Shown here one piece after another: positions 4,064 through 15,510 of a stretch of DNA of 21,655 nt (the stretch's first letter is position 1; each line of letters starts with the position of its first letter). The DNA is taken from IMG/VR virus record IMGVR_UViG_3300031521_000381, positions 1 to 21,655 of that record, one strand, 5' to 3'. A model generated the notes under the pieces. The model searched no databases. It worked only from the letters and a program-made list of their open reading frames with translations, and was not told the origin of the DNA. Source of the stretch: a virus. The position numbers and the translations under genes are program-made.

Positions 4064-4443
4064 ATGACCGAACGGATCTACACCAACACCAGAACGGGCG
4101 AGGTGGTGGAGAACGTTGAACCCCGCCCGTTCGACCAAGTCCTCAGGGAACTCGGTGAGGGCGCAACCCTCTCCGAACTGTCGGAGGCCTTCTACGACGT
4201 CATCCAACGCGTGCAGGACACGTCCAAGGCCGGATCGGTGACCTTGCTCTGATCGTCGCGTTCGACGGTCAGGGACGCCTCGTCATCAAGGACGAGGTCA
4301 AGCAGAAGCTGCCCGAGTTCTCCCGCCCGGAGACCCGCTTCTTCGTCGACAAGACCGGCAACGCCAGCCGGCGTGACCCGAACCAACCCTTGCTGCCCTC
4401 CCTTGAGGACAAGCGCAACCAGAGAGAGGCCCAGAACTCATGA
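4064..4443 (+). pseudogene. Small conserved phage gene broken by a frameshift near 4249
   Basis: The start ATG 4064 follows a good ribosome site (AGAAAGGGAT, 4051-4060). The first frame encodes 62 residues with FDQVLRELGEGATLSELSEA and VQRVQDT..KAGSVT, then hits TGA at 4250-4252. The -1 frame from about 4249 continues as LIVAFDGQGRLVIKDEVKQK, LPEFSRPETRFFVDKTGN and RRDPNQPLLPSL to TGA 4441-4443, and has no ATG or GTG start of its own. Together they look like one small actinophage protein in which a beta-rich second half ends in FFVD..GN..R.DP.QP.LPL. A one-base deletion around 4244-4249 explains the break. No slippery heptamer is present (ACC TTG CTC TGA), so programmed frameshifting is unlikely. 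A sequencing error is possible. The second-frame stop overlaps the ATG of the DUF2303 gene by four bases, as expected for the undamaged gene. Confidence 0.75.
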
Positions 4444-11994: not shown

Positions 11995-12596
11995 CACCGC
12001 TGGCATTCATTGCTACCCTTGGCGTGACACAACGTGAGGGACGTTCACCGTCCCTGGAATCGGGCCCGACATTGGTCTACGCGCTCCGTCTTGCCGAGTA
12101 CCTCCGCAGGGAAGCTGAATGGCGTCGGGGTGTCGCCACAAAGCACTCCGACCTGCAGAGCAACCAGACGGCTCGCGGTTTCGACCAGGCCGCAGCCGAG
12201 ATCGAACAACTCACCGATGACCACCCGTGGCTGATGGCGCTCGTCGAAGCGGGGTGGCTGACCGCTGACGGCTTCGTGCCCGTCGGCGACAGCGCGACCC
12301 GCTACCTCGGCCAGTTCCGGCGCCACGGCAACGGCACGTGGGAAGAGTTGCTATTCTCCCTCGCGATCTACGCCGGCGGCGAGGACGTGTGGCGAGGGTA
12401 CGCAACGACGCTCCGTGGGCGTGCCCGCCGGTTCGACTTGATCCTCACCCCGCTTCGGCCGCAAGACACTCGTCTTCCTCAGTGGGAGTCGTACTCTCTG
12501 CGCGCGAGCCAGATGGGAACGAACCGGATCGCGCAGGAGACGCTGCTCGGGATCGACCGCTACTTGACCGCCCTCGAAGCCCCGAGGCAAGCGTGA
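11991..12596 (+). CDS. Hypothetical protein, 201 residues, last gene of the early operon
   Basis: ATG 11991 overlaps the previous stop by four bases. GTG 12024 is an alternative start, since a promoter-like sequence (ATGACA at 11991, 17 bases, TACCCT at 12014 preceded by TG) lies just before it. The protein is helical with YALRLAEYLRREAEWRRGVA, a WLMALVEAGWLTADGFVPVG segment and a C-terminal TNRIAQETLLGIDRYLTALE. I do not recognise the family. It is the last member of the continuous overlap chain; the next gene has its own promoter-like sequence. Confidence 0.6.
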   Translation: MTPLAFIATLGVTQREGRSPSLESGPTLVYALRLAEYLRREAEWRRGVATKHSDLQSNQTARGFDQAAAEIEQLTDDHPWLMALVEAGWLTADGFVPVGDSATRYLGQFRRHGNGTWEELLFSLAIYAGGEDVWRGYATTLRGRARRFDLILTPLRPQDTRLPQWESYSLRASQMGTNRIAQETLLGIDRYLTALEAPRQA

Positions 12597-12623
12597 CAGT
12601 CTCGCGCATCGCACCCCTACGAT
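12593..12623 (+). promoter_or_regulatory. Candidate promoter for a leaderless mRNA
   Basis: GTGACA (12593-12598) and TACGAT (12618-12623) resemble -35 and -10 boxes 19 bases apart. The -10 box ends six bases before ATG 12630 and there is no Shine-Dalgarno sequence upstream of that ATG. This is the arrangement of leaderless transcription, common in actinobacteria, where the TANNNT box sits about seven bases before the start codon. The sites are read by eye and are not verified. Confidence 0.45.
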
Positions 12624-12629
12624 GCTCAC

Positions 12630-12908
12630 ATGAGCGAATGGGTCATGCTTGCTGAACACGTCGTGAAGATTCAACCCCAGAGCATGCGGGTCGGAGCAGG
12701 TCGCCGCCCAGCTCTCATCGATCCAGCAGACAAGACCACAGTCCACGCAGTACCCGCCCGCGGCGGACAATCCGAAGCCGCATGCGGCATGCAGTTCACC
12801 GGCATCATCCGGCTGAGCCCACCCCGCGACTGGGTAGGAGCACTCAACCCCCGGATCACTCGCTGCCCCGACTGCATCGCCGCCGTAGGCATCGAGTCGG
12901 AACACTAG
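12630..12908 (+). CDS. Small hypothetical protein, 92 residues
   Basis: From ATG 12630, with no ribosome site but with a promoter-like sequence placed for leaderless expression. The N-terminus is WVMLAEHVVKIQPQSM. The rest has a His at HAVPARG, Cys in EAACGMQ, and CPDC near the end, which fits a small metal-binding fold of the type found in actinobacterial proteins with H...C...CPDC spacing. No specific role can be assigned. It ends in TAG. Confidence 0.6.
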   Translation: MSEWVMLAEHVVKIQPQSMRVGAGRRPALIDPADKTTVHAVPARGGQSEAACGMQFTGIIRLSPPRDWVGALNPRITRCPDCIAAVGIESEH

Positions 12909-13129
12909 GCAGCCACACCCCGGAGATTGCATCGGAGCCCCGTCCATTGGGCTGACCCTCCGGTTGGCGTGGACAGGGCAAGCGGCATGACCCGCAACCC
13001 CGACGCGGGATAGCCCACCGTGCAGCCCAACGGGCCCAACCAATCGTTCCCTGCCCACCTGCCTCGCTACGCGGGAACCGCGGCCCCGTTCCCACCGCGG
13101 CGGGCAGGGACACCACACGGGAGGCGCGC
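12909..13129 (+). ncRNA. Structured non-coding block with several inverted repeats
   Basis: About 220 bases without a convincing gene. CCGGAG (12920-12925) pairs with CTCCGG (12958-12963) and encloses AGCCC (12936-12940) with GGGCT (12949-12953). GTCCA (12942) could instead pair with TGGAC (12970). CCCGC (12991-12995) pairs with GCGGG (13005-13009). CCCTGCCC (13049-13056) pairs with GGGCAGGG (13102-13109) and encloses GGGAAC (13073-13078) with GTTCCC (13088-13093). Two CCGCGG copies (13078, 13095) allow further pairing. A ribosome site GGGAGG (13119-13124) follows for the next gene. It could be a small RNA, a structured leader or DNA-level sites; the type is a guess. Confidence 0.4.
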
Positions 13130-13564
13130 ATGCGGTCCGCCATCTGCCACAACGGCAACGACTGGTGGTGGGTACGCATCCACGACACCCAGCCCGACAT
13201 GCTGGCCACGGCCAACGCCCTCCATGTCAGGCGCGGTGGTGAACGAGACCACAACCCGCCCGACACGATGGCTTGCTTCCAGCCCTCCGGCTTCTGGTAC
13301 CACGTCGACGACGACGGCGACATGACACCCGCCCGCAAGAACGGTTACACCGGGACCATGCGCCTCGTCCAAGGCAACATCAACAGCGAGATCGTGGCTC
13401 ACGAATGCGTCCACCTCGCACTCAGGACCTACCGCGGCAGACACGACGACCAAGCCACCCTCGGAACCGACTGCGGACCAAACGAAGAGTCCCTCGCCTA
13501 CATCATCGGCCAGACCGTACGCACTATGACCGACGCCCTGTACGAGCTCGGCGTCTGGACCTGA
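13130..13564 (+). CDS. HExxH metalloprotease-like protein
   Basis: A 144-residue protein from ATG 13130 with the ribosome site GGGAGG five bases before it. H91-E-C-V-H95 in EIVAHECVHLAL is an HExxH zinc motif. E119/E120 in NEESLAYIIGQ, about 25 residues later, can supply the third ligand as in gluzincin-like and ImmA-like proteases. The N-terminal half (CHNGNDWWWVRIHD ... FWYHVDDDGD) is beta-rich by appearance. Possible roles are repressor cleavage, as with ImmA, or a peptidase that acts in assembly. A repressor gene is not in the window. Position just before HNH and the packaging genes does not settle the question. Confidence 0.6.
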   Translation: MRSAICHNGNDWWWVRIHDTQPDMLATANALHVRRGGERDHNPPDTMACFQPSGFWYHVDDDGDMTPARKNGYTGTMRLVQGNINSEIVAHECVHLALRTYRGRHDDQATLGTDCGPNEESLAYIIGQTVRTMTDALYELGVWT

Positions 13565-13566
13565 CC

Positions 13567-13893
13567 ATGGCCAAGCGACGTTGCGCCAGGTGCCCCGTCC
13601 TCGTCGACGTCGGCGCCTACCGCGGGCTATGTGATGACTGCCGCCGCACCTGGGACGCAGCACGCGGCACACGCGAGCAGCGTGGCTACGGTGCTCAGCA
13701 TCAGGCAGAGCGGCAGCGCATCCAAGACCAGATGGACCAAGGCGATACCTTCACCTGTGCCCGCTGCCACCAACCCATCACACCCGGCCAGGCATGGCAC
13801 CTCGACCACAACCGCAACCGCACCGGCTACCTCGGCCCAAGCCACGAGCACTGCAACAACAGCGCCGCAGGGCACGCCAGCCACACCCAATAG
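13567..13893 (+). CDS. HNH endonuclease
   Basis: A 108-residue protein from ATG 13567. C6-x2-C9 and C22-x2-C25 form an N-terminal zinc ribbon, and C64-x2-C67 starts the HNH domain. LDHN (D80, H81) with SHEHCNNSAAG (C96, N97) are the metal and catalytic parts of the beta-beta-alpha-metal site. Small free-standing HNH proteins next to terminase genes are an established part of the packaging machine of many cos phages, where they help terminase cut cos. The location, one gene away from the small terminase, fits that role. A homing-type nuclease is the alternative. Confidence 0.88.
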   Translation: MAKRRCARCPVLVDVGAYRGLCDDCRRTWDAARGTREQRGYGAQHQAERQRIQDQMDQGDTFTCARCHQPITPGQAWHLDHNRNRTGYLGPSHEHCNNSAAGHASHTQ

Positions 13894-13987
13894 GGGGTGG
13901 GGGGAGGGGCAAAACCCCTAGTCAGAACACCGCCGGTGAGAGCCGAAAAACGTGCGGAGGGTTCAAACTTTCGCGGAGGGGGCTCAG
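13891..13987 (+). other. G-rich non-coding gap, candidate cos/packaging region
   Basis: The gap between HNH and the MuF-like gene starts with runs of five, six and four G separated by T and A (13892-13909; the first G belongs to the HNH stop codon). AGGGG (13905-13909) pairs with CCCCT (13915-13919) around CAAAA, and TAGGGG (13891-13896) can pair with CCCCTA (13915-13920). CGGAGGG occurs at 13955-13961 and again at 13974-13980; the second copy is the ribosome site for GTG 13988. In HNH-type phages the cos site lies between the HNH and terminase genes, so this is the best cos candidate in the window. No cut position can be given. Confidence 0.35.
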
Positions 13988-14977
13988 GTGGCCACTCCGG
14001 CGGTCTTCTACTCCGAGCAGGTTCGCTTGGCTGATGCGGCAGCACTTATGGCCGCTCGCCAGTGGGAGAAGCTCGGCAGCGACCTGGACAAGTGGCCGGC
14101 GATCGCGGGCCGGCTGGCCTTGATCGTCTCAGGCGCTCAGGTGCGTGCCGCATCGAACGGGATCACGTACGTCGAGGATCAGGTTGGACCTCCGGTCGCG
14201 AAGGTCCGGGCTGCGGCGTTCGGTGGATGGGCCTCCGACGGCATGCCGCTCGACTCGTTGCTCTACGGCTCCGTCGTCCAGTCCCGGCTGAAGTTTGGCT
14301 CGGGCATGACCGACGAGCAGGTGATGGCGTTCGGCGGTAACTGGCTGAGCATGGCCGTCCAACAGCAGGTACTCGACGCCGGCCGTGGCGCTACCGGCGT
14401 GGCGATCGCGGCGACTCCCCGGACGGGCTGGATCCGGTACGTGCACACGCCCTGCTGCCAGTCCTGCGCAGTGCTCGCCGGGAAGTTCTTCAAGTGGAAC
14501 GCAGGGTTCGAGCGGCACCCCCGGTGTAAGTGCACCCACCATCCGGTGAGCGAGGATGCCCCGGAGGGCTTCACCTCAGGAATCACCCCGGACCAGATTC
14601 ACGACCTGACCGATGCGCAGCGCCGAGCGATCGCCGACGGCGCCGACATGAACCAGGTCATCAACGCCTATCGGGGCATGACGCCGAGCATGCGTGGTCG
14701 GATGATCACGACGACTGAGGGCACGACTCGTCGCGGCTGGGCGTCCTACGTGAAGCGCACTCGGGCTCGCCTCACTGGTGAGCAGGTCGCCGAGACAGCC
14801 AAGAACGTCGGCCAGCGCGGCTACATCAAGAACTACGTGGAGCGACGGACCAAGGCCCGTCCGAGCCCGGAACTCATCTACGCGCAGGACATCTCGCGCG
14901 AAGAGGCTGTGCGGCTTCTCGCTCGACACGGCTACATCGTCGGCGACCTCAAGCAGGTCGCCCGTCTATCTCTCTAG
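13988..14977 (+). CDS. MuF-like minor head protein
   Basis: A 329-residue protein. I start it at GTG 13988 behind CGGAGGGGG; GTG 13952 would add 12 residues but has no good ribosome site. The N-terminal half is helical (FYSEQVRLADAAALMAARQW ... AGRLALIVSGAQVRAA). Residues 150-187 hold the MuF/VG15-type signature: YVHTPCCQSCAVLAGKFFKW (C156, C157, C160), then HPRCKCTHHPV (H177, C180, C182, H184), a probable metal site. These minor head proteins line the portal region and help head assembly and DNA ejection. They usually follow the portal gene; here the gene comes before both terminase genes. Confidence 0.8.
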   Translation: MATPAVFYSEQVRLADAAALMAARQWEKLGSDLDKWPAIAGRLALIVSGAQVRAASNGITYVEDQVGPPVAKVRAAAFGGWASDGMPLDSLLYGSVVQSRLKFGSGMTDEQVMAFGGNWLSMAVQQQVLDAGRGATGVAIAATPRTGWIRYVHTPCCQSCAVLAGKFFKWNAGFERHPRCKCTHHPVSEDAPEGFTSGITPDQIHDLTDAQRRAIADGADMNQVINAYRGMTPSMRGRMITTTEGTTRRGWASYVKRTRARLTGEQVAETAKNVGQRGYIKNYVERRTKARPSPELIYAQDISREEAVRLLARHGYIVGDLKQVARLSL

Positions 14978-15030: not shown

Positions 15031-15510
15031 ATGACCAGTGGTGGTGCACGTAACCGTTCCGGGCAGGCCCCTGACCCGAACTCTGGCCGTTCGGATCGCC
15101 GCGGATATAAGCTGACGGCGCTCCCGGCTGAGGGGTATGGCGGAGACGCTCCCGAGTGGCCGCTGTCCGAAGCTTCGATCTCTGAACTCACACTCTGGGC
15201 CGAATCGTGGCGCACCCCGCAAGCCTGCGCGTGGTCGATGCCGTCCGAATCGTGGCGAATCCGCACCGTCGCGCTGTGGGTCCGTGTCCGGATCCGCTGC
15301 GAGGATCCTTCCGCCGGCGCGGCCATCCTTGGCCAGCTGCACCGACTCGCTGACCAGATCGGCATGACGACCGCCGGCCTAGCCGAGATGGGCTGGGCGA
15401 TCGCGAAGGACGAGCTGGCGCAACGTCGCAGCGACGAGCCGGAGCAGCAAGAGACTGCCCCCAAGCAGGGTTCGTCGCGGGACCGCATGAAGGTAGTCAG
15501 TGGCCAGTGA
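15031..15510 (+). CDS. Terminase small subunit
   Basis: A 159-residue protein from ATG 15031 with a strong ribosome site. The N-terminus MTSGGARNRSGQAPDPNS and the following LPAEGYGGDAPEWPL and LWAESWRTPQACAW form a pattern I recognise from actinophage small terminases, which continue with a helical core (here AAILGQLHRLADQIGMTTAG, GWAIAKDEL). It should bind the packaging site and load the large terminase. The last 25 residues are polar and disordered in appearance. It overlaps the large terminase start by 11 bases. Confidence 0.85.
   Translation: MTSGGARNRSGQAPDPNSGRSDRRGYKLTALPAEGYGGDAPEWPLSEASISELTLWAESWRTPQACAWSMPSESWRIRTVALWVRVRIRCEDPSAGAAILGQLHRLADQIGMTTAGLAEMGWAIAKDELAQRRSDEPEQQETAPKQGSSRDRMKVVSGQ

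Follow-up and report, generated by a model that had tools for sequence, protein, structure and literature searches.

A putative leader RNA before the cos-proximal operon of a viral genome and two covarying RNA elements in the same slot of Arthrobacter phages

The gap between the early genes and the HNH operon at the right end of Arthrobacter phage genomes carries two covarying leader-region RNA elements, here called R1 and R2, which are the strongest result and the novelty of this analysis. The same slot in a 21,655-base IMG/VR virus record from a soil phage (the window) is occupied by a non-coding block, positions 12909-13129 on the plus strand, part of which is conserved in one relative. On balance, we take this block to be the 5´ untranslated leader RNA of the cos-proximal operon, acting in cis.

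Results

The block is non-coding and probably close to the right genome end

A stop at 12908 and an ATG at 13130 bound the block. The gene caller, for which the window's own genes served as training set, left it as a gap of 221 nt, and codon scores are below zero in all six frames across it. The preliminary description of this DNA, which had placed a non-coding block before a metalloprotease gene, is confirmed to this extent. It had also called the genome otherwise gapless, which is partly wrong: the caller leaves more gaps, for example one of 187 nt at 4253-4439 and another in the cos region after 13893. A possible short ORF at 12987-13013 (plus strand; MTRNPDAG in the window, MTRNPDTDQPTV in the relative L025 described below) is weak and without sign of coding selection. 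In the window the frame of the ATG at 13130 has no stop from 12956 onwards, and in L025 it is open throughout the stretch. A coding relic was nevertheless rejected because of the negative codon scores and because the eight differences in 12971-13043 show no third-position bias (3/8).

According to PHROGs comparison, the genes on the 5´ side belong to replication and recombination, resembling exonuclease, methyltransferase and replication-initiation proteins. The first gene after the block (13130-13564, plus strand) carries an HExxH motif (HECVH) and is metalloprotease-like by that motif. It is preceded by a Shine-Dalgarno-like GGGAGG at 13119-13124 (plus strand), recognized from sequence and alignment and present as GGAGG in L025. 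An HNH endonuclease gene follows (13567-13893, plus strand; phrog_1808), related to right-end HNH genes of Arthrobacter phages, and then genes for a head maturation protease, a TerS-like protein, TerL, portal, scaffold and major head protein. The head maturation protease-like gene (13952-14977) sits between cos and TerS, and DNA matching part of it is found past the TerL-portal region in two related loci, L003 and L004 (9514-9840). For 15031-15510 the best PHROG label is minor tail protein; in the records listed, of the Arthrobacter genes under the TerL match, the first is named terminase small subunit in GenBank copies and minor tail protein in RefSeq copies.

The probable cos region (13910-13970, no strand assigned) was located by conserved DNA and by the left ends of related loci. 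In the set of TerL relatives, 9 of 55 loci start exactly 14 nt before GCGGAGGGTTCA (at most two mismatches) and two more start 15 nt before it; Gordonia phage Phishy shows this spacing at its left end. The genome left end thus probably corresponds to window position 13940, so that in the packaged genome the block comes close to the right end, some 0.8-1.0 kb short of cos. The likely cos has an inverted repeat (13924-13936/13997-14009) at its flanks. An HNH gene adjoining cos and terminase is a known arrangement, as in HK97 (PMC10448857, in the passages on this module).

The leader is conserved in one relative

The sole relative found with the same leader is L025, whose TerL is 73% identical. 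Positions 12971-13129 align with the leader of L025. In the conserved leader part (12971-13047, plus strand) 66 of 77 columns are identical, including a run of 31 identical nucleotides at 12974-13004. Identity is also high in the arms of the terminal stem described below (16/18), and lower in its loop (27/48) and in the upstream flank 12909-12970 (27/62); the difference from the loop gives p 0.011 for both arms and p 0.065 for the 3´ arm alone. This conservation is not exceptional beside TerL DNA, which is 75% identical (1230/1646) and in which 255 of 1552 stretches of 94 columns are as well conserved as the leader.

The leader keeps its place relative to the operon start, not relative to cos. 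From the conserved core, measured at CAGGGC, to the start codon there are 156 nt in both phages; the distance from core to cos is not kept, being 966 nt in the window and 558 nt in L025. The gene that follows differs: in L025 the leader directly precedes HNH, without a metalloprotease, whereas in the window it precedes metalloprotease and HNH. That the leader is kept up to the start codon despite a different first gene supports its function, and since cos comes after the operon in both phages, the block heads the cos-proximal operon. The HNH proteins themselves (window 13567-13893, L025 218-571) share, by eye, their N-terminal part and differ in the rest; a mosaic break inside the HNH gene may possibly account for this.

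The stem-loop is exact, and the block as a whole folds as expected by chance

A terminal stem-loop occupies 13048-13110 (plus strand), ending 8 nt before the Shine-Dalgarno sequence. Its outer stem (13048-13056/13102-13110) is an exact 9-bp helix enclosing a spacer of 45 nt in both the window and L025, with two inner hairpins: a 6-bp one, CCGCGG/CCGCGG (13078-13083/13095-13100), and a weaker one (13058-13062/13071-13075). Of the stems noted previously, the 8-bp outer one (13049-13056/13102-13109) is exact and extends by one more pair (13048/13110). The same cannot be said of the claim that the block is structured overall, since the fold of 12909-13129 is no better than chance (z -0.65 on the plus strand, -0.28 on the minus strand). 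The local fold of 13045-13113, a stretch picked after the fact, gives z of about -3 on either strand, the minus strand folding as well as the plus strand. Of 500 shuffles of the block, 12% contain an inverted repeat of at least 9 bp; such repeats number 12 in the whole window and 7-12 in five shuffles of it.

Conservation and covariation had been suggested as a check on the structure. The former was found in L025, as described above; the latter is beyond proof with two sequences. Between the two sequences 19 of 20 stem cells are paired, and one outer pair changes from T-A in the window to G-C in L025, so that a single compensating change affects 1 of 10 pairs, a value reached by 242 of 500 shuffles. 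In both phages 12971-12978 could also pair with 13049-13056; a mismatch is kept in this helix, and therefore no switch is claimed. No match to a sigma-70-type promoter was detected in the block. A T-tailed intrinsic terminator (a short GC stem followed by a T run) is likewise absent from it; two terminator matches within 12300-14100 lie outside the block on the minus strand.

Searches for further copies and known families

DNA-pattern scans of viral contigs led to L025 or to unrelated places (five places and the contig L098 were inspected); another scan match, L099, was absent from the 40 best rows of a BLAST search with the block. Against phages and plasmids, blastn of the leader returned no match or weak, short ones, and 24 related virus records yielded seven matches of at most 24 bases each. 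Above threshold, nhmmer over the loci examined recovered only the window and L025, and scans around metalloprotease and HNH genes disclosed no second leader.

A known RNA family or a tRNA as the identity of the block was rejected. Rfam 15 gave no match at gathering score in the window, and a relaxed search of the block gave two sub-threshold matches on the minus strand; no tRNA or tRNA-like gene was found in the window or in L025 (ARAGORN, RF00005). A host attachment site was also considered. A 17-base part of the core occurs in 117 scattered stretches of the genome collection; when the block was compared with all of them by BLAST, the best 40 rows held only short matches (35 columns in the best one), and a widely conserved host attachment site is therefore unlikely.

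The same slot in other phages

Eight phages picked by eye were compared in the 150 nt on the 5´ side of the HNH operon. They fold better, with a mean z of -1.50, than 160 control stretches from the same contigs, with -0.28 (Mann-Whitney p 0.003); the window's own z in this test is -0.80, and an earlier scored set contained L011 (z -0.97) instead of L051. A large gap is not present in every one of the eight: before HNH the caller leaves 373 nt in L003, 235 in L038 and 258 in L013, but 49 in L036. By eye, some of the gaps before HNH hold hairpins, T-tailed or not (L036, L013, L011), and so do gaps of Arthrobacter phages.

Complete Arthrobacter phage genomes were reached by tblastn with the window HNH protein. 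Their right ends broadly consist of early genes, a non-coding gap, small genes, HNH and the genome end. Genes annotated as metalloprotease precede HNH in phages Raphaella and Gorpy; Anekin carries a second HNH gene there, and in Hum25 there are additional small genes plus an annotated ORF inside the gap. The gap measures 408-641 nt in six phages and 426 nt in Hum25, its annotated ORF included. In four of seven Arthrobacter gaps tRNA or tRNA-like genes were detected by ARAGORN and Rfam, and in several phages (right-end gaps of L218-L239) R1 has such genes in its vicinity, some of whose anticodons are odd or undetermined.

Seven of the 21 Arthrobacter loci were fetched via HNH or TerL matches, and among these R1 is present in six and R2 in five. 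The other 14 were fetched for a BLAST match to the elements, and the totals for R1 and R2 given below are therefore biased; several of the genomes are near-identical. The structures of both elements were drawn by hand before pairs were counted. Model searches covered 81 sources for R1 and 66 for R2, and further searches 12 and 14 sources, each with part of the loci.

R1, about 107 nt long, lies in the Arthrobacter gaps before the HNH operon. The R1 model, for which 10 of 19 sequences in an alignment (A2) were used, matches 20 of 21 loci at E 3.4e-5 or better; ten of these matches are training rows and ten lie outside the training set, some of them nearly identical to training rows. Phage Kukla, which BLAST searches had matched only at R2, is matched by the R1 model. 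In A2 the outer stem was misaligned, and the first automatic fold had for that reason given a weak consensus (-8 kcal/mol, two pairs with double changes). On an alignment of 11 distinct rows (A5), 97.6% of cells pair and 8 of 24 pairs show double changes; this pairing is reached by none of 500 shuffles and is abolished when the partners are slid, but A5 was fitted to the R1 model and therefore leans towards structure.

Four phages carry R1 without R2. The distance from the end of R1 to the next annotated gene is 32 nt in Eileen, 103 in Karkharias, 19 in RootBeer and 168 in Peas, that gene being HNH in the last three and not HNH in Eileen. In five bacterial genomes the R1 model found no match, in a search that was insensitive because only 150 candidates per genome were scored. 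An R1 pattern occurs in 7 of 395 genomes of the family (a reversed control pattern in two) and in none of 396 of the phylum, and all seven loci fail the R1 model. A place in contig L084 (2844-2934) is R1-like in its position before HNH and in its core and carries GCGTCAACG and a long stem, scoring 16.4 bits; with other places in the same contig at 14.6-14.8 bits, it is not separable from chance.

R2, about 124 nt long and lying further on than R1, is found in 16 of 21 loci. Its model was built from 12 loci, and 4 of the 16 matches are not training rows. On a plain MAFFT alignment of 12 rows (A8) with the hand-drawn structure, 98.4% of 372 cells pair and 9 of 31 pairs show double changes. None of 500 shuffles reaches this pairing, except in the count of further pair types (67/500), and sliding abolishes it. 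One helix forms a pseudoknot, in which U-A is replaced by C-G in three sequences. In five of seven phages measured, the distance from the end of R2 to the annotated start of the following gene is 14-17 nt; in Kukla and Anekin the element and that start overlap.

Of the 21 Arthrobacter loci, 11 were scanned with Rfam 15; no match overlapped R1 or R2, and what matched was tRNA-type or sub-threshold. Neither element showed up among the literature search results, and we claim no wider absence from print. R1 and R2 are accordingly put forward as candidate new RNA families.

The window shares the slot with R1 and R2

Within 12600-13600 the best full-sensitivity match of the R1 model is exactly the stem-loop 13048-13110 on the plus strand, at 11.2 bits (E 0.028 in 1 kb). 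This is noise level, as the model gives 48 matches of 7.4-16.4 bits across five other contigs, and the invariant R1 cores GTCAACG, CCAnCGAAGG and CCTGCG are absent from the block. With the R2 model the window does not score significantly either, its best being 7.1 bits (E 0.082 in 1 kb), against 5.0 bits for L025 (E 0.2 in 700 b). When gaps were aligned plainly with 16 Arthrobacter gaps, the score was reached by 28 of 200 shuffles for the window, 18 for L025, 8 for L038 and 191 for L003. The plain alignment of the window is thus within shuffles. The slot is common to the window and the Arthrobacter phages, but the window is not demonstrably a member of either RNA family.

Discussion

Of the roles proposed in the preliminary description (small RNA, regulatory leader, protein-binding array), the regulatory leader is best supported. 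The untranslated stretch, conserved in one relative, abuts the Shine-Dalgarno sequence of the first gene, as an operon leader would; stem arms, spacing and the 31-nt core are kept in that relative, and the element goes with the operon start, not with cos. The finding of R1 and R2 in the same slot of Arthrobacter phages and the better folding before HNH in the eight phages picked by eye point the same way. Against it stand chance-level folding of the whole block, the window's modest z in the eight-phage test, pair counts in the two sequences that are no better than shuffles, conservation equalled in parts of TerL DNA, a minus strand that folds as well, the lack of promoter and terminator matches and the noise-level scores of R1 and R2. 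Place and conservation thus speak for the earlier interpretation, and its structural part is weakly borne out.

The leader would head the metalloprotease-HNH operon, with cos and the packaging and head genes beyond, at the junction with the early region. Transcribed as part of the operon, it would act as RNA, its conserved 5´ part and branched terminal hairpin working in cis on the transcript. The most likely effects would be to keep the ribosome site clear of upstream pairing, to stabilize or process the transcript, or to let polymerase read on in an antitermination-like manner. The put-type antiterminator of HK022 is a leader RNA of the last kind, which makes polymerase ignore terminators.

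That the block encodes instead a separate trans-acting small RNA, regulatory or counter-defensive, near the phage right end seems to us improbable. Mycobacteriophages L5, D29 and StarStuff provide a precedent, with abundant non-coding RNAs made at their right ends, as described in the relevant sections of PMC5712189, and tRNA or tRNA-like genes do occur close to R1. The L5 RNA, in the same sections, is read from the bottom strand, from Pleft, whereas the conserved stretch of the window abuts the Shine-Dalgarno sequence of a rightward gene; nor does the block match a promoter or terminator of its own.

We rate just as low the chance that the block acts as DNA, be it an attachment site, a site related to packaging or a late promoter together with its activator site. 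An early/late junction is where one would look for a late promoter, that of phiC31 being a precedent; the 31-nt core is unchanged between two phages, and the inverted repeat would suit DNA equally well. However, the core is not repeated in the window, which also leaves the protein-binding array without support, the scattering of its 17-base part disfavours a widely conserved host attachment site, and the distance to cos is not kept.

A Rho-independent terminator of the early operon lacking its T tail is very unlikely: hairpins do occur in some other gaps before HNH, but the enclosed region here is 45 nt long and branched with no T run, and conservation runs on to the Shine-Dalgarno sequence. 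Least likely of all is a chance structure in GC-rich filler, which would agree with the whole-block folding, the frequency of such inverted repeats in shuffles and pair counts no better than theirs, but not with the conservation and equal spacing in L025.

To our knowledge, the control by which the packaging operon is switched on in actinophages is poorly mapped. It is conceivable, though we regard it as rather doubtful, that actinophages with this terminase keep the early/late junction before the cos-proximal operon as a dedicated place for structured RNA, one whose content changes fast, and use it as a common control step for packaging genes. If so, the slot would hold R1, the pseudoknotted R2 and tRNA-like genes in Arthrobacter phages, and in the window and L025 a different RNA, which would be a distant relative of these or replace them in function; the common step might be a leader, an antitermination or an anti-defence RNA. 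With a conserved leader here and R1 and R2 in isolated phages of Arthrobacter globiformis, RNA control at the early/late junction becomes testable in laboratory phages.

Among known systems, the HNH-cos-terminase module of HK97 resembles the window in having HNH beside cos and terminase; the source passages concern the nuclease, and the word "promoter" is absent from that paper's main text (PMC10448857). The RNAs of L5, D29 and StarStuff are, like the window block, non-coding and near the right end of an actinophage genome, but, as the sections devoted to them report, they are about 500 nt long and were seen by RNA-seq and Northern blot (PMC5712189), whereas the window block is known from sequence alone. 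Closest in position are the Arthrobacter elements. R1 shares with the block the slot before the HNH operon and an outer stem enclosing inner hairpins, and in RootBeer it ends 19 nt before the HNH start, but its invariant cores set it apart. R2 is branched as well and in most phages measured stands directly before the Shine-Dalgarno sequence of the first operon gene, differing from the window block in its length of about 124 nt and its pseudoknot.
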